DNA of 64,000 nucleotides, taken from the IMG/VR virus record IMGVR_UViG_3300009164_005114, positions 18,856 through 82,855 of that record; one strand, written 5' to 3'. The DNA comes from a virus. The notes below the pieces were generated by a model. The model ran no database searches. It was not told the DNA's origin and was given only the letters and a program-made list of their open reading frames with translations. Shown in pieces: positions 1-63,592 of this stretch. The first letter of the stretch is position 1; the number at the start of each line of letters is the position of its first letter. The position numbers were made by a program, and so were the translations under genes.

Positions 1-2305
1 TTGTAGTTACAGTACTAACAGCGTATTGCATTTGTTCTTTAGTAACTTCTTTTGAAGAAATTGCTTGTTGAATTTGAAATAAATCGTTTGGACTAATAGT
101 ATAATATTTTTTAGCCAATTCGTATAAATCATATTTTCTACATCCCGCAAAGAATGAATCTAAAATACTATCAACTCTAACTTTATTAGTTTCATTTGCC
201 AACACTTTATTAACAATAACATTTAATACTGACGGATGGTCAACAACAATTTTCCAAGTTAAACTACCACTTCTACTTGTATTTTTATAGGTGTAGATTG
301 GTTCAGGTCTTCCTAAGAAATCATTCGCATTCCAATTGGCAGTAACTGTTTCACTAAATGTTAACCCATATGGAGGGAACCACATAACTCTACCACCGTT
401 AGGTCCTCTTTCACAAACAGGTAAATCTGAAACAGAAAATCCTGGTGTATTTGAAGTTGCCCATGCTAAATTTTCTAATGAGAACATATATTTTTTAGCA
501 TAAGCATTATTATAACTTCCAATTAAATTTGTTGAGTCTTGACCCCCTTCTTGTTTGTTTGGAGCGATATTAAGATTATATGTTTTATCTAACACAGAAT
601 ATGAAAATCTTCTACCTTCAGTTGTAATACCATCAGTTTTTTGAAGGTCATTATATTGAAGATACGGAATGTCTTTGGCAAATACTCTACAGTATTCAGT
701 ACCAACTTCTTGTCCAATTGCCCCAACATAAGTTAAAACTCTTGAACCTTTTGTCATTTCAGTATATCCGTCATTGAATACTTTACTAACTTGGTCAATC
801 GCATTACCAACATGTTGTAATCGTTTACCACCTTGTGGTTGGCTGTCAACAATTCTTTGTGTTTTATCAAGAATAGAACCTTGTTTAAATGTTCTTTCTG
901 TTGATTCAGTTGAATTATATGATGATGGTTTAAAGTCAGAATCTTCTCTGATTATTTCACCACCAATACCAACTTTCTTACCAGCATTACCTTTGTATTT
1001 TGGTGACACCCATGTGAATCCACCTTCAATACCACCACCATTACTATATGTCGGACCATTAGCACCTAAACGAATTTCTTTACTTGGACCTTCATATAGT
1101 TGAGCTAATTCTGATGGACCATAAACAGGAGATTGTTGTTCATTACCAAATGAGTCAACAGGTAACGCTCTACTTGGTGAGAATACTCTTGAAGGGTCAG
1201 AACTTGTTGACCCAACATAAAAATTAGAATTATTTGTTTCTGTACCAACAATAGCACCACCTAATCTATCAAGTAATGTTCTGTCGTAATTTGGCTTATA
1301 TCTGTTGTAGTTAATATTTTTCCACAACAAAGATTTTTGCCCCGCACCTGTATTGTTATAAAATATTTGTGTACCAGTCTTACCAGCACCTAATAAGTTA
1401 CTTACAAAATTACCTGCTGCTGCAATTGGATTTGCAAGTAACGATTGTCCAATTGTTGTTGGTTGTGCAGGGTTAACATTTGGGTCAAAATAAGAACCTG
1501 GAATTAATGAGAATGGAGCAACACTACCACCCAATCTAAGTAAGAAATCTGCAGATGCCGAAACAGGATTAGATGGAACTGTAATTTGATAATTTGGCTC
1601 AATTAAAGGAACATTACCTGTTAATATATTAACAAGATTAGTACTACTGTTAACATTTAAAAAATTAGCACGACCTATTGTTTCTCTAATAATCGCTCTA
1701 CCTATTCTTTCTTGAAACTCTTTCTTAAGTGTTTTTGCACCTAATCGAGCAATATATGAATCCGCACTTAATAAACCATTACTACCTTGTGGGTCTGGAT
1801 TTAATAAAATTGAAAGTGGTGTATAAGATGAAGGATTGATAATTGTTGGGTATGGTTGACCATTTGGTATTCTACCGCCATCAGGATATACAATTTCTAA
1901 TGTTGTAACCGCTTCACCCGCATCAAAGGTATTACTTGTTGAGTAAGCATTAAGTGGTTTCCATATTTGTGTTGCAGCATATCCCGTATCAACAATATGA
2001 GCATCTTGTTGTCCAGGGCCATACTCCCCTTGATTTGAAGTTGTATTTAAGTTACCACTAATATCTGGTGCCAATTCATATCCACCATCATTACCCCATC
2101 TATTTAGTGGGTATTGTTTGTCCGCAAAAAATGTAGTATCAATTAATCCATCAGGACTATCAACTACCGCATAATCCGATTGAATCACCTCGTAAGTTGT
2201 AGGTGGCGTGGCGGGGTTAGGAGATTTAGCATAAGGTACTAAATTCCTGGTGATTAGTTTTTTTCTAAACCCCTCTGTGCTAATATAATCTAATGGACTC
2301 CCCAT
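1..2305 (-). CDS. Large baseplate/tail structural protein (3' end beyond window)
   Basis: The frame is open from an ATG at 2305 to the left edge (about 768 codons; start MGSPLDYIS), so the C-terminus is missing. A conserved-looking module near residues 630-680 (VMWFPPYGLTF, then IYTYKNTSRSGSLTWKI) resembles, from memory, large myovirus baseplate or tail proteins; I cannot name the family. It is the gene after the tape measure in the direction of transcription, where T4 has the tail-tube cap genes 48 and 54, but it is far longer than either. The sequence is rich in Asn, Gly, Pro and Ser, typical of beta-rich virion proteins. A TATTTAT element lies 14 bases upstream of the ATG. The structural role is inferred from context. 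Confidence 0.6.
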   Translation of the reverse strand, partial: MGSPLDYISTEGFRKKLITRNLVPYAKSPNPATPPTTYEVIQSDYAVVDSPDGLIDTTFFADKQYPLNRWGNDGGYELAPDISGNLNTTSNQGEYGPGQQDAHIVDTGYAATQIWKPLNAYSTSNTFDAGEAVTTLEIVYPDGGRIPNGQPYPTIINPSSYTPLSILLNPDPQGSNGLLSADSYIARLGAKTLKKEFQERIGRAIIRETIGRANFLNVNSSTNLVNILTGNVPLIEPNYQITVPSNPVSASADFLLRLGGSVAPFSLIPGSYFDPNVNPAQPTTIGQSLLANPIAAAGNFVSNLLGAGKTGTQIFYNNTGAGQKSLLWKNINYNRYKPNYDRTLLDRLGGAIVGTETNNSNFYVGSTSSDPSRVFSPSRALPVDSFGNEQQSPVYGPSELAQLYEGPSKEIRLGANGPTYSNGGGIEGGFTWVSPKYKGNAGKKVGIGGEIIREDSDFKPSSYNSTESTERTFKQGSILDKTQRIVDSQPQGGKRLQHVGNAIDQVSKVFNDGYTEMTKGSRVLTYVGAIGQEVGTEYCRVFAKDIPYLQYNDLQKTDGITTEGRRFSYSVLDKTYNLNIAPNKQEGGQDSTNLIGSYNNAYAKKYMFSLENLAWATSNTPGFSVSDLPVCERGPNGGRVMWFPPYGLTFSETVTANWNANDFLGRPEPIYTYKNTSRSGSLTWKIVVDHPSVLNVIVNKVLANETNKVRVDSILDSFFAGCRKYDLYELAKKYYTISPNDLFQIQQAISSKEVTKEQMQYAVSTVTT

Positions 2306-4262: not shown

Positions 4263-4403
4263 ATTATCTTCGAGCCATTTGTCCAATAAATATTTTCTAA
4301 CAAATATTGGCATTCGCTCAAAATCTTGATATGTAATTTTCATTAAAGTATTCAGATAGTAAAACTCATCTATCTGATTTTTTCTATAATCAGAAGAAAG
4401 GGC
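4251..4403 (-). CDS. +1-frame extension of the gp26-like gene (tail assembly chaperone T-like part)
   Basis: A 50-codon open stretch in the +1 frame relative to the gp26-like gene, overlapping its end and running to a TAA at 4251-4253. No ATG precedes its only in-frame ATG at 4343 (which would give a 30-residue peptide). The coding look (DEFYYLNTL, then DFERMPIFVRKYLLDKW) suggests translation from the preceding gene by +1 (or -2) slippage. A plausible site is TTT TTT C followed by CGC at 4410-4402, where tRNA-Phe could move from UUU to UUC before an Arg codon likely to be rare here. It is analogous to G/GT chaperones encoded before tape measures and, by position, to T4 gene 51. Independent translation of the 30-residue ORF is the alternative. 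Confidence 0.5.
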   Translation of the reverse strand, partial: ALSSDYRKNQIDEFYYLNTLMKITYQDFERMPIFVRKYLLDKWLEDNKKD

Positions 4404-33827: not shown

Positions 33828-33830
33828 CAA

Positions 33831-35125: not shown

Positions 35126-35135
35126 AAAATAAATA

Positions 35136-39333: not shown

Positions 39334-39334
39334 A

Positions 39335-41977: not shown

Positions 41978-41978
41978 C

Positions 41979-42779: not shown

Positions 42780-42782
42780 AAT

Positions 42783-45642: not shown

Positions 45643-45647
45643 TAAAA

Positions 45648-46436
45648 ATGTTGAAGTACTTTAAACCTGCAAGAGGTAATGGAGTTCACCAAAGAGGTTA
45701 TTTTTCATACATAACCGAAGCTGTTGTTCATATACATAATGTACTATTAAATTACCCCGACGAAAAATTAAAAATTTATTACGACCTATCAGACATTGTA
45801 GGATACGGTAGTCAAAATATTTATGATGTTTGTTTTGTTCAAGATAAAAATGATTACTTAACAAATATTAATGATTATTCTAATATTGAATTGGTCAATT
45901 ATATTTCACCATTAAATGCTTATGAAAGTGAAACATTTACACTTGAAAACTTAAAAATGTGTGAATCAATTATTAAGGAAAATTTCATATTAAATGACGA
46001 AATGAAACAATTGTTTTCATCAAGACATTCCCAAATTGATTTTACAAAAACTATAGGATTTCATAGGAGAGCCACAGATATGGCAGATGTGCATCATATA
46101 CCAACAATAGATTTATCTGAAATCTTTAATATATTAGAAAAAGAAGAGTTTGAAAATGTATTTTTAATGTGTGATAACCTTAATGATTTAAACCAATTCA
46201 GACAAAGATATGGTAATAAACTAATAACTTTTGATGAATTTACGTCATCAAAAACTGAAGACAACCCATTCTTTAAATTAAAAAATGACGAGGAATCAAT
46301 TAAACAACACATACAAGAAATTGTTTTTGGGGCATATACATTAGGAATGACTAAAAAATTAGTTTGCACTAAATCAAATCTATCAACATTTTCAATTTTC
46401 TCAAACTCACAATTAAACTACACAAGATTAAATTAA
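45648..46436 (+). CDS. Probable GT23/O-FucT-superfamily fucosyltransferase-like protein
   Basis: 262 residues. IGFHRRATDMADVHHIP fits the donor-binding His-x-Arg-Arg motif of the superfamily that includes alpha-1,6-fucosyltransferases and protein O-fucosyltransferases. ENVFLMCDNLNDLNQFRQRY and CTKSNLSTFSIFSN are compatible with its C-terminal half. It is shorter than most members. Together with the GT10 and GT11 genes it would be a third fucosyltransferase fold in the same operon. The assignment rests mainly on one motif plus context. Confidence 0.55.
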   Translation: MLKYFKPARGNGVHQRGYFSYITEAVVHIHNVLLNYPDEKLKIYYDLSDIVGYGSQNIYDVCFVQDKNDYLTNINDYSNIELVNYISPLNAYESETFTLENLKMCESIIKENFILNDEMKQLFSSRHSQIDFTKTIGFHRRATDMADVHHIPTIDLSEIFNILEKEEFENVFLMCDNLNDLNQFRQRYGNKLITFDEFTSSKTEDNPFFKLKNDEESIKQHIQEIVFGAYTLGMTKKLVCTKSNLSTFSIFSNSQLNYTRLN

Positions 46437-47417
46437 ATGTCAAAAAAAATTGCACTTATAACAGGAATCAACGGACAAGACGGTTCTTATTTAGCAGAGT
46501 TTTTACTTGATAAAGGATATGAAGTTCATGGTACCTTAAAAAGAAACTCAGTTGCCGAAAATCAAACGGCAAGATTGGATAACATATTCAATCAAATTAA
46601 ATTACATTATGCAGATTTAACAGATTTATCTTCTTTAATATCAGTAATTCAAAAAACAAATCCTGATGAAATTTACAACTTAGCTGCTCAGTCACATGTT
46701 AGGATTTCATTTGACCAACCAATATATACCGCCAATGTTACGGGTATTGGAACTCTTAATTTATTAGAGGCGGTTAAATTAATTAAACCATCCGTTAAAA
46801 TATACCAAGCATCTTCTTCAGAAATGTTTGGAAATTCCATTGACGAAGATGGATTCCAAAGAGAATCTACCCCATTAAATCCTGTATCTCCTTATGGATG
46901 TGCTAAAGTGTTTAGTTATAACATTGTAAGAAACTACCGAAACTCATATGGTATGTTTATTTCTAATGGTATTTTGTTTAATCACGAATCACCAAGAAGA
47001 GGGACAAATTTTGTAACTAATAAAGTTTGTAAAGAAGTCGTAAAAATACATTTAGGATTATCTAATGAATTAAAATTAGGTAATTTGGAGGCCACAAGAG
47101 ATTGGGGACACGCTAAAGATTATGTAAAAGCAATGTGGATGATATTACAACAAGATAAACCAGATGATTTTGTATGTTCAACGGGTATATCTCATTCAGT
47201 ACAAGATTTATGTGAGTATACATTCTCAAAATTTGGATTAAATTTTAGAGATTATGTAACTGTTGATGAAAAATTTTTACGACCAGAGGAACTTCACAAT
47301 TTAAAAGGTGATAGTTCTAAATTAAATAATATTACAGGGTGGACTCCAGAATACACCTTTGAAACAATGTTAGATGAAATGTTGGAATTTTGGATAAATT
47401 ATTATACTAAAAAATAA
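46437..47417 (+). CDS. gmd: GDP-mannose 4,6-dehydratase
   Basis: 326 residues. The NADP site TGINGQDGSYLAEFLLDKGY is almost canonical, as are YNLAAQSHV, the catalytic ASSSEMFG, SPYGCAKVFSYN (Tyr-x-x-x-Lys) and ILFNHESPRRG. It converts GDP-mannose to GDP-4-keto-6-deoxymannose, the branch point to fucose, colitose and perosamine. It starts one base after the previous stop. Confidence 0.93.
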   Translation: MSKKIALITGINGQDGSYLAEFLLDKGYEVHGTLKRNSVAENQTARLDNIFNQIKLHYADLTDLSSLISVIQKTNPDEIYNLAAQSHVRISFDQPIYTANVTGIGTLNLLEAVKLIKPSVKIYQASSSEMFGNSIDEDGFQRESTPLNPVSPYGCAKVFSYNIVRNYRNSYGMFISNGILFNHESPRRGTNFVTNKVCKEVVKIHLGLSNELKLGNLEATRDWGHAKDYVKAMWMILQQDKPDDFVCSTGISHSVQDLCEYTFSKFGLNFRDYVTVDEKFLRPEELHNLKGDSSKLNNITGWTPEYTFETMLDEMLEFWINYYTKK

Positions 47418-47422
47418 AAAAA

Positions 47423-47806
47423 ATGATAAATGTACCAGTAAGTATTGGTGAATTAATTGATAAATTATCAATTCTTCATGTAAAAAAAATTAAAGTTTCT
47501 AATCCTGAAAAATTAGAATTTATTAATAAAGAGTTTGAATTATTATATAATATGTCATCATATTATCTAAACGATGAAGAAATTTCAAAACAATACCATA
47601 TGTTAGTAGATATTAATTCTAAACTTTGGGAAGTTGAAGACAAACTAAGAGTGTTAGAAGTTGAAAAAAGATGGGATGCAGAATTTGTTGATTTAGCAAG
47701 AAAAGTATACTTTACAAATGATGAAAGATTTTCAGTTAAAAACAAAATTAATGAACTAACTAATTCAGAAGTTAGAGAACAAAAAGAATATGTTGAATAT
47801 AAATAA
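47423..47806 (+). CDS. DUF6165-like small protein linked to sugar loci
   Basis: 127 residues. The N-terminus INVPVSIGELIDKLSILHVK, then KIKVSNPEKLEFINKEFELL, matches the small helical family I know as DUF6165, often found beside surface polysaccharide genes. There is no catalytic motif; it is mostly helix. It follows gmd by five bases and may assist a glycosyltransferase. Confidence 0.6.
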   Translation: MINVPVSIGELIDKLSILHVKKIKVSNPEKLEFINKEFELLYNMSSYYLNDEEISKQYHMLVDINSKLWEVEDKLRVLEVEKRWDAEFVDLARKVYFTNDERFSVKNKINELTNSEVREQKEYVEYK

Positions 47807-47820
47807 ATTAAATTACTCTA

Positions 47821-48567
47821 ATGGCAAGACAAACTAAAAAACCAACACCTACTCCTTCGACTTATGAGGAGAAATCGGTAAGAACAAAAAAAGAAATAAT
47901 TTGTTCAATTATTAAAAGAAAAACAAAAGAAAAATTTTTAACTCAGACACAAAAAAATTATTACGATAAATTAATTTCAAGTGAGGTAACAATTTGTTCT
48001 GGTCCTGCAGGTGTGGGTAAAAGTTATATTACAATGAAAGCTGCGATTGATTTAATCTCAGACCCAAACACACCCTATGAAAAAATTATTATTGTAAGAC
48101 CAGCTGTTGAGGCTGAAGAAAAATTAGGTAGTTTACCTGGTAATGTTGAAGAAAAATTAGACCCTTATATTTTCCCATCTTATTATTTGTTAAACAAAAT
48201 AATTGGAAAAGAGACAAGAGAAAAATTAAAAGAGATTGAGGTTATTGAAGTTTTTGCATTGGCGTTTATGAGAGGTATGAACATTGATAATTCAATTTTA
48301 ATTTTTGAAGAAGGTCAAAATGCAACTCCAAGTCAAATGAAGTTATTATTAACAAGAATTGGATTTAATAGTAAATTCTTTATTTCAGGTGACGTTGAAC
48401 AATCTGATAGATACAAAAACAAAACACATAGTGGATTGTGGGATGCAATTGAAAAATTTAGGGGAGATGAAAACATCTCAACCTTTGAGTTTAAAGATAA
48501 AAATGATATTGTTAGAAATCCTTTAATTAGTAAAATCTTACAAAAATACGATAACGAAACAGAATGA
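47821..48567 (+). CDS. phoH: PhoH-like ATPase
   Basis: 248 residues. Walker A is CSGPAGVGKSYI (61-68 for GPAGVGKS), the PhoH-typical IIIVRPAVEAEEKLGSLPG follows, and Walker B/motif II is ILIFEEGQNATPSQMK with TRIGFNSKFFISGDVEQ after it. PhoH proteins are superfamily 1-like ATPases common in marine phages; their exact role in infection is unclear. A basic N-terminal 40 residues precede the ATPase core. It overlaps the next gene by four bases. Confidence 0.9.
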   Translation: MARQTKKPTPTPSTYEEKSVRTKKEIICSIIKRKTKEKFLTQTQKNYYDKLISSEVTICSGPAGVGKSYITMKAAIDLISDPNTPYEKIIIVRPAVEAEEKLGSLPGNVEEKLDPYIFPSYYLLNKIIGKETREKLKEIEVIEVFALAFMRGMNIDNSILIFEEGQNATPSQMKLLLTRIGFNSKFFISGDVEQSDRYKNKTHSGLWDAIEKFRGDENISTFEFKDKNDIVRNPLISKILQKYDNETE

Positions 48568-49160
48568 GAATAGGGGTAGAGTTGAATGGTGTTTTAAGAG
48601 ATACTTTAAGAAAAATTCAACAAGAGTATGAAAAATGGTATTTAGAAAATCCATTCAAAGAAGATGAGGAAAAATCAGAGTACGAAGTATTATCTGATTT
48701 GACCACTTTGAATATATTAAAACATCTTAAATTTAAAGATGAAGATGAATTATATAATTTTTTATATAAAGAACATACCATGGAAATTTTTGGTCATGCT
48801 GGCTCGGTTGAAATTTCAAGTATGATGGATTTTAACGAATTCTATTTAGACATGAGAGATAATCATGACATACTAATTGTTTCCGATGAAATGGGTAAAT
48901 CAAAACCTGCATCTCTTTTCTTTATTTCAAAATTTGGTTGTTTAGTTGAGACGGTAAAATTTTATAGTGAATCAACAATTAATTCACTATGGGATTCAAT
49001 AGACGTTTTACTTACTGCAAATCCTAAACTATTATTAAACCATCCTGAAGGAAAAATGGTTATTAAATATGAAACTTCATATAATTCTGATATTGAAACA
49101 AACCATTCAATAACGCATTTTAAACAACTAAAAACAAAAATAACAGAGATATATGATTAA
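48564..49160 (+). CDS. Degenerate HAD / 5'-nucleotidase-like protein
   Basis: 198 residues. The N-terminus MRIGVELNGVLRDT aligns with the HAD motif I pattern of phage-type 5'-nucleotidases (usually DxDGVLxD), but the catalytic Asp residues are replaced by Glu6 and Asn8. ILIVSDEMGKSKPASLFFI resembles motifs II/III. A helical cap (residues 15-75) is present. It is probably catalytically altered or inactive. It overlaps both neighbours, so it is co-translated with PhoH. Confidence 0.5.
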   Translation: MRIGVELNGVLRDTLRKIQQEYEKWYLENPFKEDEEKSEYEVLSDLTTLNILKHLKFKDEDELYNFLYKEHTMEIFGHAGSVEISSMMDFNEFYLDMRDNHDILIVSDEMGKSKPASLFFISKFGCLVETVKFYSESTINSLWDSIDVLLTANPKLLLNHPEGKMVIKYETSYNSDIETNHSITHFKQLKTKITEIYD

Positions 49161-49434
49161 AGTATTAGGACAAAATTACTATATTGATTTGGACAAAGTA
49201 GAAGAATACTTGGATATGACAAATCAATTTCCCCCTGAAGAAATTTCAGGTACTACAGAAATGAAAATTAACATCATAAAATTTGAAATGGTGAAAATGT
49301 TAATGGATACAGTATTAACAGAACACGAAGAAATTGACGAACAATTAGGTTTAAAATCAAGTACAAGTACTAGTATACCATTCAGATTGGCATTCAATAG
49401 CTTATTAAACAAAAAACTTATAAATCATTATTAA
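49153..49434 (+). CDS. Small protein of unknown function
   Basis: 93 residues: MIKVLGQNYYIDLDKVEEYL at the start, a central helix around IIKFEMVKMLMDTVLTEHEE, and FRLAFNSLLNKKLINHY at the end. No motif. It overlaps the HAD-like gene by eight bases and ends one base before the next start. Confidence 0.4.
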   Translation: MIKVLGQNYYIDLDKVEEYLDMTNQFPPEEISGTTEMKINIIKFEMVKMLMDTVLTEHEEIDEQLGLKSSTSTSIPFRLAFNSLLNKKLINHY

Positions 49435-49435
49435 T

Positions 49436-50488
49436 ATGGAAACATCTTTAAACGAAAAAGTAAAACAGTCGATTCAAAATCTAAGAGACAAGAAATCTAG
49501 AATTTATTTCTTAGTACAAGATACTAAAGGGAATGCAAGAGCGTCTGTTAGATTAATTTATCAAATGGCTAAAACCCTTTTAGATTCAGGATTTAATCCT
49601 ATAATCCTTCATGAAAAATCAGATTACGCTGGCGTTATTGCTTGGCTTGACGAAGAATATATGTCAATCCCACACAAATCAATTGAAGGTCAAAATTTGG
49701 AGATTTCTCCTGAAGATTTTATAATCGTACCTGAATTATTTGGTTACATTATGGAACAAATTAAAAACTTACCTTGCGGTAAAATAGTTTTAACTCAAAA
49801 CTATAATAATATTGTAGAAACTCTACAACCTGGTCAAAATTGGCAACAATACGGATTCTTAAAATGTATTACAACTACAAAAAAACAAGAGGAATATATT
49901 GAAACGGTTATGAGACAAACAAGTTTTGATATTATTAAACCTTTAATTACCGATAGCTTTTACCCAAAAACTTTACCTGCAATGCCAATCATTGGTGTTC
50001 ATACTAAAGACCAATCAGATACAATTAACATTATTAAAACATTTTACCTTAAATTCCCTCAATATAGATGGTTCACATTTAGAGATTTAAGAGGTCTTTC
50101 TGAAATTGAATTTGGAAATTCTTTAAGAGATTGTTTTGTTAGTGTTTGGATTGACGAACAAAGTGGATTCGGTACATTCCCATTAGAATCAATGGCTTCA
50201 GGAGTACCAGTAATTGGTAAAGTACCTTACATGCAACCTGAGTGGATGAATGAGGATAACGGTATTTGGATTACTAACCCTACACTATTTTGTGATTTTA
50301 TTGCCGACTTTATTCAAAATTGGTTAGAAGATAATATCAAACCTGAACTTTATGACAACATGAAAAAAACTGTTGAAAATTATACTAATAAACAAGAATT
50401 TGATTCTACCGTTACTTCTTTATTTGAAGGGTATTTAAATCTAAGGGCAGATTCATTTGAAGAACAAATCGCTAAAACTGAAGAATAA
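49436..50488 (+). CDS. GT-B-like glycosyltransferase
   Basis: 350 residues. RIYFLVQDTKGNARASVRLI, then LVQDT-type N-terminal half; the C-terminal half has SVWIDEQSGFGTFPLESMAS, then GVPVIGKVPYMQPEW. This is the donor-binding block of GT4 enzymes (Gly-Phe-Gly, Glu, Ala-Ser-Gly-x-Pro-Val). It separates the PhoH group from the last GT2 of the cluster. Confidence 0.75.
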   Translation: METSLNEKVKQSIQNLRDKKSRIYFLVQDTKGNARASVRLIYQMAKTLLDSGFNPIILHEKSDYAGVIAWLDEEYMSIPHKSIEGQNLEISPEDFIIVPELFGYIMEQIKNLPCGKIVLTQNYNNIVETLQPGQNWQQYGFLKCITTTKKQEEYIETVMRQTSFDIIKPLITDSFYPKTLPAMPIIGVHTKDQSDTINIIKTFYLKFPQYRWFTFRDLRGLSEIEFGNSLRDCFVSVWIDEQSGFGTFPLESMASGVPVIGKVPYMQPEWMNEDNGIWITNPTLFCDFIADFIQNWLEDNIKPELYDNMKKTVENYTNKQEFDSTVTSLFEGYLNLRADSFEEQIAKTEE

Positions 50489-50489
50489 T

Positions 50490-51296
50490 ATGAATAACAA
50501 ATTATCACTATCCGTAATATTACCAATTAAATCATCTAAAGCAAAAGACTTTGATGAATATTTTGAAAAAGCTATCACATCAATTAAAACACAAACAGTT
50601 GAAATTGAGGAATTATTAATAGTACATACATCCGAAGAATCATTAATCAAACATTTAAATGATTATGATTTTGGTACTCTTAATGTCACAAAATTATTGT
50701 GGGATAAAGAACCTAATTATTGTGAACAAATTAATTATGGTGTTAAAAACGCCAAGGGTACTTGGATTTCTTTATTTGAGTTTGATGATGAGTATTCATC
50801 AATTTGGTTTAAGAATGTTAAAAAATATATTGACTCTTATCCTCAAACACAAGTATTTTTACCTGTTGTTGTTGAAACTGACGAAAAAGGTTTATTCGCA
50901 GGGTTTACTAATGAAGCAACATTTGCAGCTAATTTTAGTCAAGAAATGGGTATATTAACTAACGAAACTTTACAAGATTATCAAAACTTTCAAACCGCTG
51001 GTTCTGTAATTAAAAAAGAAGTTATTGAGGATTTTGGAGGATTTAAGCCCTCAATCAAATTAACTTTTATTTATGAATTCTTATTAAGACTAACTTATAA
51101 TTCAGTATCAATTATGACTATTCCAAAACTTGGTTATAAACATACTAATATGAGAGAGGGTTCAATATTTTGGAATTATAAATTTGGTCAAGATAAGATG
51201 ATTGAAGATGAAGTAAAATTTTGGATTCAAACGGCAAAAAAAGAATTTTTCTTTGTTGATGATAGAGCCATAAATTATCAAACTGAAAATGTATAA
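50490..51296 (+). CDS. GT2-like glycosyltransferase
   Basis: 268 residues from the ATG at 50490, two bases after the previous stop. A TTG further upstream (50457) in the same frame would overlap the previous gene by 32 bases and is less likely. LSLSVILPIKSSKAKDFDEY, LLIVHTSEES and WISLFEFDDEYSS (metal site) are GT2-like; FGGFKPSIKLTFIYEFLLRL fits the second half. It overlaps the sigma factor start by one base. Confidence 0.7.
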   Translation: MNNKLSLSVILPIKSSKAKDFDEYFEKAITSIKTQTVEIEELLIVHTSEESLIKHLNDYDFGTLNVTKLLWDKEPNYCEQINYGVKNAKGTWISLFEFDDEYSSIWFKNVKKYIDSYPQTQVFLPVVVETDEKGLFAGFTNEATFAANFSQEMGILTNETLQDYQNFQTAGSVIKKEVIEDFGGFKPSIKLTFIYEFLLRLTYNSVSIMTIPKLGYKHTNMREGSIFWNYKFGQDKMIEDEVKFWIQTAKKEFFFVDDRAINYQTENV

Positions 51297-52045
51297 TGCA
51301 AGAAACTCTATCTGCAACGACAGAAGATGTTTCATCCAAAAAAAGAGGTAGAAAGACAGTAAATGTAAATTATTTTGACGTAAGAGAAGAGACCGCAGTT
51401 AGAAATTTTCTATTGGCGGAAACCGCAGAAGAAAAAAACAAAATATATAACGAATACTTAAGAGGCCCTCTTGATAAGATGATTTCGTCTATCATAAGGA
51501 GATATAAATTATATCGTAAGGATATGGATTTTATTGAAATCCATTGTGACACTCATTCTTTTTTAATGACTAAGGTTGATAAATTTAAACCTTCAAAAGA
51601 AAAGAAAGCGTATTCGTACTTTGGTACAATCTGTAAAAATTATTTAATGGGTCAAATTATTAAAGACCAAAAAGAAATAAACAGAAAAGTATCATACGAG
51701 GACATGTCTGAAAGTATTGAAGAAAGACCTGATATGATGTACCGAATAGATGAGGAAGTGGTAGACACTAGTGTTATCATTACTCAATATCTAAAAGAAT
51801 TAAAAGATTTTATTGATACTGAAAATTTAAACGATAATGAAAGAAAATTAGGTTATGCGTTAATTGATTTATTTGATAATTATGAATCAATTTTTTCGGG
51901 AGCGGATAATAACAAATTTAATAAGAATGTTATTCTTTTATCATTAAGAGAAATGACAAATCTTAGTACTAAAGAAATACGCAGTTCTATTAAGAGATTT
52001 AAAAAGTTGTATATTTTAATTCAAACTAAAATGAAAACCGATTAA
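51296..52045 (+). CDS. Late sigma factor (gp55-like)
   Basis: 249 residues (T4 gp55: 185). A sigma-70 region 2-like block is visible: LDKMISSIIRRYKLYR, then FIEIHCDTHSFLMTKVDKF and AYSYFGTICKNYLMGQIIKD, which corresponds to the core-binding and -10-recognition helices. Region 4 is absent, as in gp55, which depends on the sliding clamp and a coactivator. The C-terminus (LREMTNLSTKEIRSSIKRFK) may bind the polymerase flap or clamp. It would direct transcription of late genes, possibly from the TATTTAT elements described here. Confidence 0.75.
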   Translation: MQETLSATTEDVSSKKRGRKTVNVNYFDVREETAVRNFLLAETAEEKNKIYNEYLRGPLDKMISSIIRRYKLYRKDMDFIEIHCDTHSFLMTKVDKFKPSKEKKAYSYFGTICKNYLMGQIIKDQKEINRKVSYEDMSESIEERPDMMYRIDEEVVDTSVIITQYLKELKDFIDTENLNDNERKLGYALIDLFDNYESIFSGADNNKFNKNVILLSLREMTNLSTKEIRSSIKRFKKLYILIQTKMKTD

Positions 52046-52049
52046 AAAG

Positions 52050-52056
52050 TATTTAT
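52050..52056 (+). promoter_or_regulatory. Candidate late promoter element TATTTAT
   Basis: GTATTTATAGATATG: the element ends four bases before the ATG at 52061. Confidence 0.5.
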
Positions 52057-58239: not shown

Positions 58240-58270
58240 TTTTTTTATTGTTTTAATTGACTTATATTTG
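58240..58270 (+). promoter_or_regulatory. Host-type promoter (strong -7 element)
   Basis: TATATTTG at 58263-58270 exactly fits the Bacteroidota -7 consensus TAnnTTTG. The -33 position is only TTTT. It lies 26 bases before the ATG at 58297. Confidence 0.5.
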
Positions 58271-58296
58271 TAGTCAACATATATACAATAAACTAA

Positions 58297-58698
58297 ATGA
58301 AAAATATTGCCCATAACTTAAAACGACTAATTCAAAAAAAGTACATTTCTTTTTCTAGAATGTCAAATCCCCAAGTCAAAAAATCAGCATACGAAAGGGA
58401 TTGTATCACAATTTGTAAAAAATTAATTGCAAAAGACGATACTGTTTTACTGTTAACCCCAATTTCTAATAAACGTTATATCCGTAACGAAGAATTACAA
58501 ATCTTTGTAATTTTAGAAAATTATAGTGTAAAAGTGATTAATCACGTTTACTCTTACACAGTCTTCTTAGAAGACAAATCATGGCATTTAATTACTAATT
58601 TATTTGATAATGAAGTTGAAAGACGTAGAGAAGTGTTTGAAAATGAAATAACTTCAAACATAAAACACTCATTACAAAACATCATAAAATCACTATAA
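58297..58698 (+). CDS. Small protein of unknown function
   Basis: 133 residues. A basic N-terminus (MKNIAHNLKRLIQKKYISF) is followed by a mixed helix/strand body (DTVLLLTPISNKRYIR; LQIFVILENYSVKVI; VFLEDKSWHLITNLFDNEVE). No signal peptide or motif. It stands behind a host-type promoter and ends just before a membrane protein gene (1-base overlap), so it is probably an early host-takeover gene. Confidence 0.45.
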   Translation: MKNIAHNLKRLIQKKYISFSRMSNPQVKKSAYERDCITICKKLIAKDDTVLLLTPISNKRYIRNEELQIFVILENYSVKVINHVYSYTVFLEDKSWHLITNLFDNEVERRREVFENEITSNIKHSLQNIIKSL

Positions 58699-59006
58699 TG
58701 AAAAATAGCCCATTTAGAAAAACATTTATTGGGGGTCTTGTTATATTGTTTTTTGTAATTCTTTTTTTCCTTGTTATTTTTGTTAATGTGTTTAATAGTA
58801 TTAATGATTACATAGACAATGAAGAGAGAAATAAACCTAAGGTTAAAGAAATAATCGTTGAGGAGATTAAACCTGAAGTTATCCACATTGACACCCCAAA
58901 AATTAAAGTGATAAATAAACCTAAAGAAAAGGTTATTGACACACCTATAATTACAAAACCAAAAGACACTGTTGTGGTCATTGACACAACAATTTTAAAA
59001 AAATAA
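58698..59006 (+). CDS. Single-span membrane protein with Lys/Pro-rich periplasmic tail
   Basis: 102 residues. One N-terminal membrane segment (about 10-32, GGLVILFFVILFFLVIFVN) is followed by a charged tail with repeated Lys-Pro and Asp-Thr-Pro (KPKVKEIIVEEIKPEVIH; IDTPKIKVINKPKEKV), N-in and C-out by the positive-inside rule. The layout resembles TonB-like linkers or an inner-membrane spanin subunit. There is no proof of either. Confidence 0.5.
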   Translation: MKNSPFRKTFIGGLVILFFVILFFLVIFVNVFNSINDYIDNEERNKPKVKEIIVEEIKPEVIHIDTPKIKVINKPKEKVIDTPIITKPKDTVVVIDTTILKK

Positions 59007-59037
59007 TTTGTATAATAAAAAAATAATTGTATCTTCG
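59007..59037 (+). promoter_or_regulatory. Host-type promoter of the exported protein gene
   Basis: TTTG at 59007-59010, exactly 19 bases, then TATCTTCG at 59030-59037 (one mismatch to TAnnTTTG). It ends four bases before the ATG at 59042, so the mRNA may be leaderless or nearly so. Confidence 0.6.
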
Positions 59038-59041
59038 TTTT

Positions 59042-59425
59042 ATGAAAAAATTAATCTTATCATTCGCACTTTTATTAAGTTCAGTTGTTGGATACTCTCA
59101 GTACCTTGGACCGATGAATCAAGGACTATTCAATAGTTTAGGTATTGAAGAACGTACTTTATTAATTGAATGTGTAAACCAAACTGGGGTTTCGTTGGAT
59201 TCTATGGAGTGGATTCAAGTAGGTGACTCAACTTATGAAAAAGTTAGAATGGACGATGGTTTCAATTATTACTACAATAAAAAAACCATCATCTATAATA
59301 GTGATGGTTCTAATCGAGTTATGACAGATTATGGTACTCATAGTTTAGACAAACCAAAATTCTTGGTCGCTATTTTCAAGTATTCTAATGGTGTCTCAAG
59401 AGTTACATTAATGATGTATTACTAA
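59042..59425 (+). CDS. Exported protein of unknown function
   Basis: 127 residues from the ATG at 59042; an upstream in-frame codon at 59027 lies inside the promoter. A signal peptide is clear: KK, then LILSFALLLSSVVGYSQ with a likely cut after Ser-Gln or Gly-Tyr-Ser. The mature part is a small beta-rich domain (SMEWIQVGDSTYEKVRMDDG; FNYYYNKKTIIYNSDGSN). The signal-peptide end (YSQ) is typical of flavobacterial proteins. It probably acts in the host periplasm, for example in superinfection exclusion. Confidence 0.6.
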   Translation: MKKLILSFALLLSSVVGYSQYLGPMNQGLFNSLGIEERTLLIECVNQTGVSLDSMEWIQVGDSTYEKVRMDDGFNYYYNKKTIIYNSDGSNRVMTDYGTHSLDKPKFLVAIFKYSNGVSRVTLMMYY

Positions 59426-60651
59426 AATTCTTCAGCAGTATCTTTAATTTGTACGGCAGTTGATAACCCTCTGCCGTATTTGTCTTTTTGACTTGGTTTT
59501 ATATAGACAAAATAATCATCTCCAGTTACTTCAGCTTTATCTTTTAAAGGTATTTCTTCACCTTTAAATGTATCTAAAGGATATTTCATATATTGTAAAG
59601 TACCTACCTTTGGTACTCCATCACCATCTGTAAAGGCAACAGTTAAAGGTAATGTACTACTACCATTATCTCCCATACCTTGAGACGTTGTAATTGTTCT
59701 TATGATTTTTCTACCTAATTTCGCGGCTTCGTTTGGAGGAAAAGATTTATTAACTTTATCAAAAATAATACCTAATTCATCTCTTGTTGGTAGTTTAAGT
59801 CCCGCTGAAATAATTTTTCCTTCTTCTGTTTCAAACCAAACATCATAAGTGTTACCATTTTTTACAAAATATAATGCTTTACCTGAAGTATTTTCTCTAA
59901 ACGAATCGTCTTTTAATAGTTTATAATCAAAGTTAGGAGACGTTTGTTCGTTTAAAACCTTCTCAACTAATCTTAATAAATCGTTTTCTGTTAATCTTAT
60001 TGTTTTTTTCATTGATTCATTTTTTGGTTTATATGAAACCATCTTAGGTTTATTACCTGTTCCCGTTTTTGAATGTGACTTTTCAGCTCTTCTTTTTTGT
60101 TGACAAGCACTTTTCTTTTGGGAGTCACTCATTTTTGACGCAACACCTGCCGCACGACATTTAGGATATCCTTTATCTGATGCTTCAGGTCTACCACATG
60201 GAGGGTGTTTACCATCAACTTTACGACAGATATTAACCCAAGGACCTTTTGGTTGTTTACTACCTTTTGGTTTTTTTTTGGTTCCAAACCATACCGCTAA
60301 ATCTTCTTTAAGTGGACCAACCGCTTTTTTAATAATATCATCAGGAGATTCAATATCATTTAAACTACCACCTTCATCATCATTTTGGTCTGTATAAAAT
60401 TGTTTTAAATATGTATCTACTTTTGATAACATTTCAGTTTTCTTTTCAATTTTGGCTCTTTGTTCAGGTGATTCTTTAAAATCATCATCTGCCTCTTCAT
60501 ATGCCAATTCTGCATTAGTATATTGATAAACAGGAGTATTGAATGGTGCCAATTGGTCTGGTTTCCATTCTTGTGGTGCAAGTACTATTGGGACTTTAAA
60601 ATGACCCGAAGAACCTGACCCTGTCGCTTCACTAATTCTATTTTTTTTCAT
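59422..60651 (-). CDS. Probable head-internal protein with two protease-motif modules
   Basis: 409 residues from the ATG at 60651, nine bases after a TATTTAT element. An in-frame ATG at 60681 lies upstream of that element and is unlikely. The N-terminus KNRISEATGSGSSG contains ISE|A. Near the middle is a basic Cys block (GPWVNICRKVDGKHPPCGRP, then YPKCRAAGVASKM) of a kind I recall in phage proteins. A second module KKTIRLTENDLLRLVEKVLN, followed by EQ, is preceded by an internal Met, as if two genes were fused. The C-terminal 170 residues form a separate alpha/beta domain (GKALYFVKNGNTYDVWFETE). A head cargo or core role is inferred. Confidence 0.5.
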   Translation of the reverse strand: MKKNRISEATGSGSSGHFKVPIVLAPQEWKPDQLAPFNTPVYQYTNAELAYEEADDDFKESPEQRAKIEKKTEMLSKVDTYLKQFYTDQNDDEGGSLNDIESPDDIIKKAVGPLKEDLAVWFGTKKKPKGSKQPKGPWVNICRKVDGKHPPCGRPEASDKGYPKCRAAGVASKMSDSQKKSACQQKRRAEKSHSKTGTGNKPKMVSYKPKNESMKKTIRLTENDLLRLVEKVLNEQTSPNFDYKLLKDDSFRENTSGKALYFVKNGNTYDVWFETEEGKIISAGLKLPTRDELGIIFDKVNKSFPPNEAAKLGRKIIRTITTSQGMGDNGSSTLPLTVAFTDGDGVPKVGTLQYMKYPLDTFKGEEIPLKDKAEVTGDDYFVYIKPSQKDKYGRGLSTAVQIKDTAEEF

Positions 60652-60660
60652 ATACTTACT

Positions 60661-60667
60661 ATAAATA
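60661..60667 (-). promoter_or_regulatory. Candidate late promoter element TATTTAT
   Basis: TATTTATAGTAAGTATATG on the minus strand, nine bases before the ATG at 60651. Confidence 0.5.
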
Positions 60668-60682
60668 TATTGATAACACATT

Positions 60683-60907
60683 ATGGAACAAGAAAAACAA
60701 CCTATCGGATTACTTTTTGATAGTATGGCATATTATTCACCTGAAGATATCTCAATTCTAACTGATAATTTAACATACGAACAATCTTATTATGTTCTAA
60801 CCCAAGCTTTAGAATTTGCATACAGAGCTAATTTATTTAGTTTACAAGAATCTGAATTAGTATCAAAATCTTTACGAATATTAAATTCACCAAAAACTGA
60901 AGAATAA
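60683..60907 (+). CDS. Small protein of unknown function
   Basis: 74 residues, acidic and mostly helical: GLLFDSMAYYSPEDISILTD, NLTYEQSYYVLTQALEFAYR and QESELVSKSLRIL. No motif. It is transcribed divergently from the 409-residue gene and ends at a bidirectional terminator. I do not see a clear promoter. Confidence 0.45.
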   Translation: MEQEKQPIGLLFDSMAYYSPEDISILTDNLTYEQSYYVLTQALEFAYRANLFSLQESELVSKSLRILNSPKTEE

Positions 60908-60936
60908 AAAAAGGGGTCTCACGGAACCCCTTTTTT
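60906..60936. terminator. Bidirectional intrinsic terminator
   Basis: GGGGT / ACCCC stem flanked by A7 on one side and T6 on the other, between convergent genes ending at 60907 (+) and 60939 (-). Confidence 0.8.
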
Positions 60937-60938
60937 AT

Positions 60939-61715
60939 TTATAATTTATTTCCACAAGACGGACAAAATTTATATTTTGATTTTGTCTTGGTACCACATT
61001 CAGTACAATATTGTTTAATCTCATCTGTAGTTTTATTTTTAGTACCTAATGGTAATATTTTTAAACTAATTTGATTAGATACATTGTATTCAAAATTTTG
61101 GTAAGAATTAGTAAATTTTTGATTTGATTTTTCACCTTTCTCGACTCTACCTGTTTCAATAGATTTTTTTGATTTAAGACTTCTAATGTTTGGACCTTGT
61201 GGTGTTGAACCTCCAACCATTGATGAATTAGAGTAAAATGAAGTTGGTATTGAGGAGTTTGATGTTGTAAATGTCATATCTCCATAGTATGGTGAACCTG
61301 TGTTGATGGTAGTATTTACAGTTCCATTTAACCCTAATGTTGTACCATAATTTGGTTGATATGTTTGTTCGTTATAGAACTCAATTCTTACGTCCCCGTT
61401 TAAATCAATTGCAGACCTGTTTTCAGACGTATCTTTTACTTCGTAGGTACTGAACTCAAACTTGTTATTAGAGTCAAGGAAACGTTCTAAAAACACCCTT
61501 TGACCTGGTCTAATAACAATACCACTTGTTGAGATATACTCACCATTTAATTTGATTTTACAGAGAACAGATTTGTGTGTTGGATTATGAATTTCAAATT
61601 CAAAATTGTCTTTGTCGTTAAGAAATACGACGTGACCATTGTAGACTTTAAGACGCGACTTTTTCTTTGTGATGTGAGCAGTCGGTTTGCTCACGTTAGT
61701 TGTTGTGTAATACAT
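60939..61715 (-). CDS. Zinc-ribbon protein with beta N-terminal domain
   Basis: 258 residues. The N-terminal 100 residues form a beta domain (FEFEIHNPTHKSVLCKIKLN, then IVIRPGQRVFLERFLDSNNK) that I recall from large-phage and giant-virus proteins, though I cannot name the family. A Ser/Asn/Thr/Gly-rich linker follows, and a C-terminal zinc ribbon CTECGTKTKSKYKFCPSCG with the two Cys-x-x-Cys knuckles. It probably binds zinc and may sit on the virion. No TATTTAT element precedes it; a GC-richer, possibly structured region lies in its leader. Confidence 0.6.
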   Translation of the reverse strand: MYYTTTNVSKPTAHITKKKSRLKVYNGHVVFLNDKDNFEFEIHNPTHKSVLCKIKLNGEYISTSGIVIRPGQRVFLERFLDSNNKFEFSTYEVKDTSENRSAIDLNGDVRIEFYNEQTYQPNYGTTLGLNGTVNTTINTGSPYYGDMTFTTSNSSIPTSFYSNSSMVGGSTPQGPNIRSLKSKKSIETGRVEKGEKSNQKFTNSYQNFEYNVSNQISLKILPLGTKNKTTDEIKQYCTECGTKTKSKYKFCPSCGNKL

Positions 61716-61759
61716 TTTTTTAATTTTATTATAGTTAATGACTATGTTACCAATACCTT

Positions 61760-61800
61760 AGTGTCCGTGAATACTCAACAGCTTGTTAGGGCTGGGGACT
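61760..61800. other. GC-richer inverted-repeat region in a 179-base gap
   Basis: Nested arms GTCC (61763-61766) / GGAC (61796-61799) and CAGC (61779-61782) / GCTG (61791-61794) in AT-rich surroundings. It could be a structured leader of the leftward zinc-ribbon gene or a small RNA. The rest of the gap holds only the rightward lipoprotein promoter. Confidence 0.3.
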
Positions 61801-61839
61801 GATAAACTAAAATCTAAAAATAAATATATTCAAAATGTT

Positions 61840-61869
61840 TTTGGAATCAAGAAAAAATGTATATATTTG
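61840..61869 (+). promoter_or_regulatory. Host-type promoter of the lipoprotein gene
   Basis: TTTG at 61840-61843, 18-base spacer, TATATTTG at 61862-61869 (perfect TAnnTTTG). It ends 25 bases before the ATG at 61895. Confidence 0.65.
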
Positions 61870-61894: not shown

Positions 61895-62116
61895 ATGAAA
61901 AACTCAATTGTAATTTTATTCTCAATAGTATTATTAACTTCATGTGCAACTCAAAAAACTATTGAATTGGCAAATGGTAAAATGGTTACCGAAAAAAAAT
62001 TCGCAAGAATGTGCCACAGAGCATACAAAAAGAGTTTTGGTAAAATGCCAAAAGAAGATAAGAAATTATTTGAGGACGTAAAAATAACTGTGGATACTAC
62101 TCAGTCGGGAAATTAA
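61895..62116 (+). CDS. Small lipoprotein
   Basis: 73 residues. The signal peptide ends in a lipobox, VLLTSCATQ, so the mature protein starts at Cys17 or so and is lipid-anchored. The mature part is short and basic (LANGKMVTEKKFARMCHRAY), ending in an acidic, Thr-rich tail. With a strong host-type promoter it is probably expressed early, where phage lipoproteins often block receptors or superinfection. An outer-membrane spanin subunit is another possibility. Confidence 0.65.
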   Translation: MKNSIVILFSIVLLTSCATQKTIELANGKMVTEKKFARMCHRAYKKSFGKMPKEDKKLFEDVKITVDTTQSGN

Positions 62117-63571
62117 TTATCCTTGAACAAAGGTGATGTAATCACTTGGTTTATACATAACTCTGTTATAACCCGTGTCTTTAACTATTTTCAATACGTT
62201 TGGTTTGTCGGTAGTAACCGCAAACTTGTTATCTATAAATTTCTTAACCGCAACTTGAGGGGTATCTGCATTAACTGTCTTAACCGTAATAATTTTAGCA
62301 TTTGAAGGTACCTTTTCTCCTGATGATTTAACAATTTTAACTTTATCCCCAACCTTAATACCATAACTGGCAATTGGTTTTAAAGCAACATAAGTACCAT
62401 CTTTCTCAGGTGTAGAATTAATGAATGCGTTAGATATTAAATATTTTACCATTTCATCAGGTTTACCTGCTGCGTATTCAACTGTGTTACCTGTAAGTTT
62501 AGATTGTTGGGTAGTAGATTTACCTTCCCCTTTATTTTCGGTTTCAACACCTTTTTGTTTTAAATTACCACAATTATCTAATACTAATATTGTTTTTTCG
62601 TTGGTTTCACCTCTAGCTGCAAGTGATGGAGAACAACCCCAATATATAACTGAAGACCCCTTACTGATTTTAACTTCAGGTGTGCTTGAGTGACAATTAG
62701 AACCTGAAATACATTGTAAACTAATTATAATATCCTTACTTTGATTCCCGATAATTTGTTTTGCTTGAGCATCTGTAACTATTAAAGGCTTACTTGTTCT
62801 TGAACCACCATCAACTCTATTATTTAAATTCGCAACACCTATAACAACACCATTTAATTTTACATTAAAAGTTGCCTCATCGCATCTATGGCCTCCTCTA
62901 CAAGTAAATGGTTTTCCGTCTGGTATTGACACTGATGGTGACGCATCTTTATTTTCATTATACATAACCTCAACAGTTAACCCTACAACACATTTTGCTG
63001 GAGATTGTAATTTTAATTCTACGTTAACAAATCTTTCAGATTTATATTTTTTGTCATTTGGATTATCAACTCCTTTAGTGTAAGTAGTTGAACCAATAAT
63101 AACCTCAGGTGCTTCAAATATTGGTGATTGAGATATAATACCTTGACTCAATAAGTTGTCAAAATATTGAGTTAAATAAGTTTTCATTGTGGTAGCCCTT
63201 TTTTCTGAAAGATATCCTGGGTCGACCTTAGGGTGACTAGGTACTTCATTATCAGTATTAGTTACTTGGGATTCTCCCGCAATGATTTTTACATAAACTA
63301 CTCTTCCTTTTTTTGCTGCCAAAAATTTTGCAGCGTTGGCTAATTGACTATCTAATTGTTGCTTACCTTTAGAAGATAACGCTTTCCACATTCCATTGGC
63401 AAAAAAACTTTCACCTTTAAGGGTCATTTCATCAGGATTTGTTGTTGATTGAACTGCTGATTGTTTATTACTATCATCTTCCGATAGATATAATCTTTTA
63501 GTTGCAGATTCATGTAAATTAATAATCCTTATTTTTTCTTCCGAACTTACACACCAATTTTGCTTAATCAT
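62117..63571 (-). CDS. OmpA-like-domain protein next to the capsid gene
   Basis: 484 residues. The N-terminal IINLHESATKRLYLSEDD is a second kind of (I/L)-x-E module. Residues 45-190 resemble an OmpA/MotB peptidoglycan-binding-type fold (SFFANGMWKALSSKG, VVYVKIIAGES, GYLSEKRATTMKTYLTQYFD, then ERFVNVELKL). A Cys-containing beta region and a repeated beta C-terminus (GIKVGDKVKIVKSSG) follow. It has no signal peptide, so a virion role (capsid-associated or cell-wall contact) is more likely than a host membrane protein. A TATTTAT element is 14 bases upstream. Confidence 0.5.
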   Translation of the reverse strand: MIKQNWCVSSEEKIRIINLHESATKRLYLSEDDSNKQSAVQSTTNPDEMTLKGESFFANGMWKALSSKGKQQLDSQLANAAKFLAAKKGRVVYVKIIAGESQVTNTDNEVPSHPKVDPGYLSEKRATTMKTYLTQYFDNLLSQGIISQSPIFEAPEVIIGSTTYTKGVDNPNDKKYKSERFVNVELKLQSPAKCVVGLTVEVMYNENKDASPSVSIPDGKPFTCRGGHRCDEATFNVKLNGVVIGVANLNNRVDGGSRTSKPLIVTDAQAKQIIGNQSKDIIISLQCISGSNCHSSTPEVKISKGSSVIYWGCSPSLAARGETNEKTILVLDNCGNLKQKGVETENKGEGKSTTQQSKLTGNTVEYAAGKPDEMVKYLISNAFINSTPEKDGTYVALKPIASYGIKVGDKVKIVKSSGEKVPSNAKIITVKTVNADTPQVAVKKFIDNKFAVTTDKPNVLKIVKDTGYNRVMYKPSDYITFVQG

Positions 63572-63585
63572 TTTTTGTTTTTATT

Positions 63586-63592
63586 ATAAATA
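63586..63592 (-). promoter_or_regulatory. Candidate late promoter element TATTTAT
   Basis: CTATTTATAATAAAAACAAA on the minus strand, 14 bases before the ATG at 63571. Confidence 0.5.

Follow-up and report, generated by a model that had tools for sequence, protein, structure and literature searches.

Primary-sigma promoters of Bacteroidota carry a -33 box (TTTG) and a -7 box (TAnnTTTG), as described for Bacteroides fragilis, Bacteroides thetaiotaomicron, Flavobacterium johnsoniae and Flavobacterium psychrophilum, and the -7 box lies at -12 to -5 in the available parts of two flavobacterial start-mapping studies (PMC6847099, PMC9723704). In B. thetaiotaomicron, 5′ untranslated regions under 10 nucleotides (nt) account for about 3.7%, and the same two sources give 5.5% of the mRNAs of F. 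psychrophilum as leaderless (PMC9723704) and 87% of the leaders of F. johnsoniae as longer than 10 nt (PMC6847099). The late promoters of phage T4, associated with the sigma factor gp55, have a different box, TATAAATA, that begins at -13. Here, we analyze promoter motifs in a 64,000-nt window (bases 18,856-82,855 of the 82,855-base IMG/VR virus record IMGVR_UViG_3300009164_005114), for which the original prediction, made from the sequence alone, proposed Bacteroidota-type promoters in front of small early-type genes. Positions are those of the window, and genes are denoted by their first coordinate.

Probable host-type promoters upstream of genes

Both TTTG-19-TATCTTCG at 59007 and TTTG-18-TATATTTG at 61840 are present where they had been predicted, and the third, partial copy reported at 58240 has TTTT in place of TTTG, followed by a perfect TATATTTG at 58263 (Table 1). 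The -7 box is an exact TAnnTTTG at 58263 and 61862 and shows one deviation (TTCG) at 59030, and the -33 element is an exact TTTG at 59007 and 61840. Across the whole window, counting both strands, the pattern TTTG-17..20-TAnnTT[T/C]G occurs 9 times versus 5.15 (standard deviation, sd, 1.89) in 100 dinucleotide shuffles, that is, it is not enriched, so that the pattern alone proves nothing.

The picture is different upstream of genes. The upstream non-coding segments comprised 35 from the same record and 674 from eight related IMG/VR records (out of 13 such records); genes in all records, including the controls described below, were called with a simple open reading frame (ORF) caller that prefers the first ATG, except that 58297, not found by the caller, was included manually and 59422 was given a different start. 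On the sense strand, the full pattern was found in 3 of the 35 segments of the record itself (979 of 1000 shuffles gave none and 21 gave one), namely, those with the 59007 and 61840 sites and the segment of a single-stranded DNA-binding protein (SSB) gene outside the window, and in 36 of the 674 segments of the relatives versus 0.6 expected (sd 0.8; 30 shuffles). The antisense strand of the same segments contained no full pattern in the record itself and 12 in the relatives, which may reflect segments common to two divergent genes. Because related records have orthologous sites in common, these counts are not independent.

The motif also recurs in front of homologous genes, counted only where the start codon could be placed and the flank was long enough. 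For 58297, whose homologues ranged down to 29% identity at the protein level, TAnnTTTG was present within 130 nt in each of the 50 distinct upstream sequences, making the partial copy at 58240 the best conserved of the three sites; a T-rich -33 region was visible in a logo of 59 distinct sites of these homologues that were picked for the presence of the box and aligned on it. The -7 box preceded 61895 homologues in 6 of 6 distinct upstream sequences, and TAnnTTTG preceded distant homologues of 59042 (26-27% identity) in 2 of 2. By contrast, the box was found upstream of homologues of the neighboring genes 60683 and 57761 in 3 of 64 and 0 of 68 cases, respectively. Chance occurrence of the motif in AT-rich DNA would be compatible with the window-wide count, but the enrichment confined to upstream segments and the conservation before homologues, which concerns the 58263 and 61862 boxes in particular, make it extremely unlikely; for the 59007 site, the support consists of the match itself, the position and two distant homologues. 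As in Bacteroidota primary-sigma promoters, the spacing following TTTG in the phage sites has its mode at 19-20 nt, and G is avoided at -10 and -9. Given the upstream enrichment and the recurrence before homologues, the proposal of host-type promoters holds, and the three sites are very probably promoters of the type recognized by Bacteroidota sigma-A.

A second motif and the distance of both motifs to the start codon

Another motif, TATTTAT, was found in 18 of the 35 upstream segments of the record itself versus 1.6 expected and in 311 of the 674 segments of the relatives versus 46.7. The T4-type TATAAATA was found in 3 segments of the record versus 0.6 and in 52 of the relatives versus 18.9, and in neither set did this T4 late consensus qualify as the box of the class. 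TATTTAT sites consist of a short AT-only box with no visible -33 element. The two motifs segregate by gene family. Of the 75 families in which upstream non-coding sequence preceded three or more members (leaving out members from the Flavobacterium phage vB_FspM_immuto, hereafter immuto), the host-type motif was present in at least half of the members in 10 and TATTTAT in 38, with 3 families in both groups. TATTTAT heads the families of the tail sheath, tail tube, head-tail adaptor, portal, head protease and baseplate wedge proteins; it was not found upstream of the baseplate hub gene 4390-5133. The host-type motif was found, among family members of the relatives with upstream non-coding sequence, before genes for M20 peptidase (7/7), ClpP (6/6), calcineurin-like phosphoesterase (5/5), a cyclic-phosphate-processing receiver domain (4/4), a lipoprotein (4/4), RNA-repair-type HAD (3/5), P-loop kinase (2/4) and Rnl1-type RNA ligase (2/2), with thymidylate synthase and an aminotransferase as single cases in two records. 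Both motifs meet in the stretch that contains the three host-type sites, where the minus-strand genes 59422, 60939 and 62117 have TATTTAT (Table 1).

In both classes, the most frequent distance from the box to the start codon is exactly 4 nt, with 39 of 119 host-type sites (listed individually for gaps up to 30 nt) and 73 of 337 TATTTAT sites, although these counts include orthologous sites from related records that are not independent. In this respect, the host-type sites are unlike the promoters of mapped Bacteroidota hosts. Gaps of 4-6 nt account for 116 of the 337 TATTTAT sites, and gaps of 0-3 and 7-8 nt are nearly empty in both classes. The 4-nt gap is maintained within families, such as M20 peptidase (7/7) and phosphoesterase (5/5). 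At gene-internal ATGs, the same spacings were found 15 times (host-type, gap 4) and 10 times (TATTTAT, gaps 4-6) among 24,926, compared with 39 and 116 among 1,256 gene starts. The 39 distinct host-type gap-4 sites, which were chosen solely by TAnnTT[T/C]G, 4 nt and a gene start, additionally share the unselected features TT at -35/-34 (0.90 and 1.00), G or T at -33/-32 and T at -1 (0.79).

With the -7 box at the mapped position of -12 to -5, a 4-nt gap places +1 of a host-type promoter on the A of the ATG, and these sites are accordingly predicted, from their position, to produce leaderless mRNAs. Among the three host-type sites of the window, only the 59007 site has this gap, and the mRNA of 59042 is predicted to be leaderless; for 58297 and 61895, the predicted starts are at about 58275 and 61874, respectively, which would give leaders about 22 and 21 nt long. 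By analogy, the TATTTAT sites with a 4-nt gap are predicted to be leaderless as well. Judging from position, about a third of the sites in each class are so near the ATG that their messages should have little or no leader. No gap-4 peak was detected in six phages with recorded hosts (T4, P-SSM2, immuto, crAss001, phi38:1 and Mel-JY01). A study of phage AR9 remarks that leaderless transcripts are frequent in phages (PMC5312081), and leaderlessness by itself is therefore not new; the new part is that, in one phage lineage of Bacteroidota type, two classes of promoter are located at the same exact leaderless distance. No earlier report of these features was found among the titles and openings of abstracts listed in literature searches.

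The strong positional preference beside the ATG could also mean that TATTTAT is a translation initiation signal of mRNAs lacking Shine-Dalgarno sequences, A/U-rich and Kozak-like, and that only TAnnTTTG marks promoters; translation in F. johnsoniae is reported to rely on A at -3 and -6 (PMC6847099). However, TATTTAT occurs within 70 nt of the start in just 3 of 518 genes located less than 10 nt from a codirectional neighbor, compared with 85 of 174 divergent genes and 176 of 406 codirectional genes with a gap of at least 30 nt. Furthermore, the distances have a second mode at 13-17 nt and include conserved, family-specific values of 29, 34 and 55-63 nt. A translation signal is thus an improbable explanation, and we treat TATTTAT as a second promoter class.

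Proposed two-stage scheme and host phylum

We consider it likely that the sites described above are genuine host primary-sigma promoters in a T4-like phage of Bacteroidota that combines two-stage transcription with leaderless placement. Under this scheme, upon infection, host RNA polymerase with sigma-A would read TTTG/TAnnTTTG before small non-structural genes. The phage would then make a gp55-like sigma factor (51296-52045) that would redirect the polymerase to TATTTAT before virion genes. In both classes, a promoter about 4 nt before the ATG would start transcription from the ATG itself and give a leaderless mRNA, and one placed roughly 13 nt or more before the ATG would leave a leader of at least about 10 nt; either placement would suit host ribosomes that do not rely on Shine-Dalgarno sequences.

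The system resembles T4 late transcription in having a short AT-only box before virion genes and a sigma region-2 protein with late-sigma PHROG and fold matches, and differs from it in that TATTTAT replaces TATAAATA, often at the leaderless distance, and in a possible second sigma domain. Among the phages compared, immuto is likewise T4-like with TATTTAT before genes (32 observed versus 3.8 expected), and its gene order, SSB, recombinase, exonuclease, helicase, is that of the record studied here (in which SSB was tested and the rest were assigned by eye); it differs in lacking enrichment of host-type promoters and in having gaps of 4-6 nt at 3 of 34 TATTTAT sites. The Bacteroides phage crAss001 and the Cellulophaga phage phi38:1 share the enrichment of TAnnTT[T/C]G before genes (10 versus 1.6 and 11 versus 1.9, respectively) but have no gap-4 site and no TATTTAT enrichment (1 versus 0.8 and 0 versus 1.3). 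The same -7 box count was 4 versus 8.9 in T4, 5 versus 3.9 in P-SSM2 (200 kb), 2 versus 4.3 in immuto and 18 versus 8.3 in Mel-JY01. The full TTTG-17..20-TAnnTT[T/C]G pattern was found twice each in crAss001 (0.1 expected), phi38:1 (0.0) and Mel-JY01 (0.1) and was absent from P-SSM2 (0.1) and immuto (0.2). TATTTAT counts were 9 versus 5.1 in T4, 1 versus 2.8 in P-SSM2 and 22 versus 5.8 in Mel-JY01, and those of TATAAATA were 13 versus 1.5 in T4 and 6 versus 1.1 in P-SSM2.

Several observations weigh against the two-stage scheme. TATTTAT is not confined to virion genes, being present 55-63 nt upstream in 6 of 7 members of the DNA polymerase family, and among the relatives' SSB family members, only 2 of 6 have the host-type motif and 1 has TATTTAT. 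Leftward genes of the record itself, recombinase and helicase among them, have neither motif, nor do 260 of the 666 upstream segments of at least 20 nt. The box at 59007 has C at -6, which among the 39 gap-4 sites is seen in one, namely, this site itself. The T4 late box starts two bases further upstream than TATTTAT at gap 4 would, so that the start position assigned to TATTTAT is by analogy only. Finally, among the controls, a full host-type site precedes one gene of T4 (0.0 expected), both motifs are enriched, albeit more weakly, in Mel-JY01, whose recorded host is Microcystis, and immuto, with a known Flavobacterium host, shows no enrichment of TAnnTT[T/C]G, so host-type promoters are not used by every phage of Bacteroidota.

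The 260 segments with neither motif contain TTTGAC 24 times versus 5.6 expected, for example, before SSB in three records; no consistent second box was apparent by eye in these segments, and TTTGAC is possibly a third promoter class. In immuto (NC_055915.1), other words, overlapping around TTTAGGTATCAATAAT, and TTCGTATATT are strongly enriched upstream of genes, which suggests a different promoter.

The assignment of the host to Bacteroidota, which the original prediction based on the promoters, is well supported, both by the control phages, among which crAss001 and phi38:1 show enrichment of the -7 box and T4 and P-SSM2 do not, and by the closest relatives of a GDP-mannose dehydratase-like gene (46437-47417). 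The best match of this protein (77%) is in a Bacteroidota genome, and 4 of the 5 best cellular matches are from Bacteroidota (first 5 of 80 listed). A host from another phylum with similar promoters could be considered, given that Mel-JY01 shares both motifs and ranks first among 2,365 phage records by tail sheath, and that relatives of the dehydratase include proteins from Pyrinomonadaceae (75%, rank 2) and Marinimicrobia (69%, rank 6). We find this unlikely in view of the contrast between the control phages and the predominance of Bacteroidota among the best dehydratase matches; besides, 58297 matches only 4 phage records at E ≤ 1, all of them from Flavobacterium phages and all weakly (E = 0.01-0.02). 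The Shine-Dalgarno words AGGAG/GGAGG show no clear enrichment in the record itself (1 versus 0.7) or in the 674 segments of the relatives (24 versus 18.3, sd 3.3), but this is a soft sign of a Bacteroidota host because they occur in immuto 10 times versus 3.7 (sd 1.9). Given that both motifs are enriched in Microcystis phage Mel-JY01 (PP395634.1), its cyanobacterial host label may deserve a check. The dehydratase-like gene belongs to a long run of glycosyltransferase- and nucleotide-sugar-like genes, as judged by eye, at 32613-51296.

These observations provide a map of the promoters in a phage lineage that is abundant and uncultured, and show that many genes of the lineage can be sorted into two classes from sequence alone. 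If the leaderless reading is true, leaderless mRNA is far more common in these phages than in mapped Bacteroidota, and the phages are a natural test of start choice by ribosomes that act independently of Shine-Dalgarno sequences. A broader proposal concerns a widespread lineage of T4-like phages infecting Bacteroidota, which would rely on leaderless mRNAs for much of both its early and its late program, using the host sigma factor and then a single-chain late sigma with region 2 and a region-4-like domain, that is, a natural fused late sigma that would read a rewritten box, TATTTAT. This proposal is tentative, and we lean somewhat against it. In the part available, a 2010 review of T4 late transcription states that a natural fused late sigma has not been found and asks why none exists (PMC2988020), a question that the candidate 51296-52045 makes testable.

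Candidate late sigma, genes behind the promoters and a leader RNA

The coordinates of the sites and genes are collected in Table 1.

Table 1. Promoter motifs, genes and leader RNA in the window
Feature	Coordinates	Strand	Details
Very probable host-type promoter of 58297	58240..58270	+	TTTT 58240-58243, 19 nt, TATATTTG 58263-58270, 26 nt to ATG 58297
Very probable host-type promoter of 59042	59007..59037	+	TTTG 59007-59010, 19 nt, TATCTTCG 59030-59037, TTTT, ATG 59042
Very probable host-type promoter of 61895	61840..61869	+	TTTG 61840-61843, 18 nt, TATATTTG 61862-61869, 25 nt to ATG 61895
TATTTAT of 52061	52050..52056	+	Exactly 4 nt before ATG, predicted leaderless; gap 4 in 52/55 distinct homologues, 3 at gap 3 or 5
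TATTTAT of 59422-60651	60661..60667	-	9 nt before ATG; in 7/7 of the relatives' family members with upstream non-coding sequence
TATTTAT of 60939 leader RNA	61820..61826	-	Back to back with 61840 promoter
TATTTAT of 62117-63571	63586..63592	-	14 nt before ATG; in 13/13 distinct homologous upstream sequences, gaps 4 to 17
Candidate late sigma, gp55-like region 2, C-terminal helical domain possibly region-4-like	51296..52045	+	phrog_234, E = 6e-4 (weak)
Conserved small protein, 133 amino acids	58297..58698	+	Homologues in 128/160 fetched loci, some sharing contigs; AF2 pLDDT 89.8
Single-span membrane protein, Pro/Lys/Thr-rich tail (by eye)	58698..59006	+	Start overlaps 58297 stop
Secreted protein, signal peptide ending YSQ (by eye)	59042..59425	+	Upstream box in distant homologues
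Small lipoprotein, lipobox LTSC (by eye)	61895..62116	+	LPAM_1 E = 0.064, below cut-off
Conserved structured leader RNA of gene 60939-61715	61740..61814	-	Starts 5 nt past TATTTAT box; back to back with 61840 promoter

The candidate sigma factor was identified by profile and structure comparison, and the query had at least 581 matching IMG/VR stretches. The late-sigma profile phrog_234 matched 17 of 30 family members at E ≤ 0.01, and Sigma70_r2 matched 12 of the 30 (best E = 0.0088), the protein of the window not being among the latter. Direct comparison with T4 gp55 was weak (hhalign probability 5.9%, E = 0.0065; PDB sequence search, 7d7c chain, E = 0.65). The structural model (pLDDT 73, pTM 0.39) gave no Foldseek match at E ≤ 0.001; after realignment with VIA-align, almost all of the 50 rows listed were sigma factors, with Z = 9.1 over 91 residues to region 2 of sigmaE (4lup) and Z = 7.6 over 118 residues to gp55 (7d7c). 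The model thus points to a sigma region-2 fold, and the protein perhaps reads TATTTAT. Residues 153-249 aligned with sigma-H of F. nucleatum (3mzy; VIA-align Z = 6.5, 73 residues, root-mean-square deviation 3.3), although helical domains readily give such Z values; sequence searches for a region-4 domain returned nothing relevant. For these two reasons, the two-domain late sigma is a lead from modeling and not a result. The sliding clamp family PF02916 had 0 matches in 10 records and equally 0 in 14 control genomes and is therefore uninformative.

The products encoded behind the host-type promoters had been described as cytoplasmic, membrane, secreted and lipid-anchored proteins, which agrees with the sequences by eye. 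Neither the host-type box nor TATTTAT was found in 8 distinct upstream sequences of 58698 homologues, and because 58698 also overlaps 58297, it is probably co-transcribed from the 58297 promoter. PHROG and Pfam scans of 58297, 58698, 59042 and 61895 gave weak hits only, the best being phrog_16872 (function unknown; E = 0.0023) for 58698, and for 58297, there was no fold match in the PDB at E ≤ 0.001 and nothing convincing in a PDB sequence search. The roles in host takeover and surface exclusion that had been suggested for these genes found no support: 61895 had no significant family match, its hits to Cor superinfection exclusion (E = 0.03, residues 1-32 only) and to spanins (E = 0.14 and 0.18) being limited to the N-terminal part.

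The early timing of these genes is plausible from the classes of genes involved. In support of the early-type label, the host-type class heads ClpP and RNA-repair-type genes; TATTTAT fits the complementary late role in heading virion genes but also heads DNA polymerase, so the label stands only in part. Alternatively, the host-type genes could be constitutive, middle or lysis genes, with 58698 and 61895 as a spanin-like pair. A membrane protein and a small lipoprotein with spanin profile hits would suit lysis, but the hits are insignificant and confined to the N-terminal 25 residues, the two genes are not adjacent, and the same promoter class in the relatives is found before ClpP and before genes of RNA-repair type such as RNA ligase; we consider this alternative doubtful. 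RNA-repair-type genes (RNA ligase, HAD_SAK, cREC, kinase and phosphoesterase) are found behind host-type promoters at L171, L172, L173, L175 and L189 (relatives G001, G004 and G009), many of these promoters being in the predicted leaderless position, and are perhaps an early counter-defense set.

The leader RNA of 60939 was aligned from 37 core matches, one of which (L077, apparently unrelated) was omitted. It is predicted to form an 18-pair structure in which 100% of cells are paired across 36 distinct sequences, as counted on the same alignment from which the structure was predicted; in slid alignments, the value drops to 24-57%. Five pairs show changes on both sides, although several pair changes fall within one clade and may represent few events. 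Two of five shuffle measures were unstriking, namely, changes on both sides (5 versus 3.3; 25 of 500 shuffles) and further pair types (8 versus 7.3; 220 of 500). Rfam had no match to the leader RNA and one chance hit elsewhere (E = 1.3). As a guess, this RNA could control the downstream zinc-ribbon gene (60939-61715). The strict leader pattern is present in at least 119 IMG/VR stretches.

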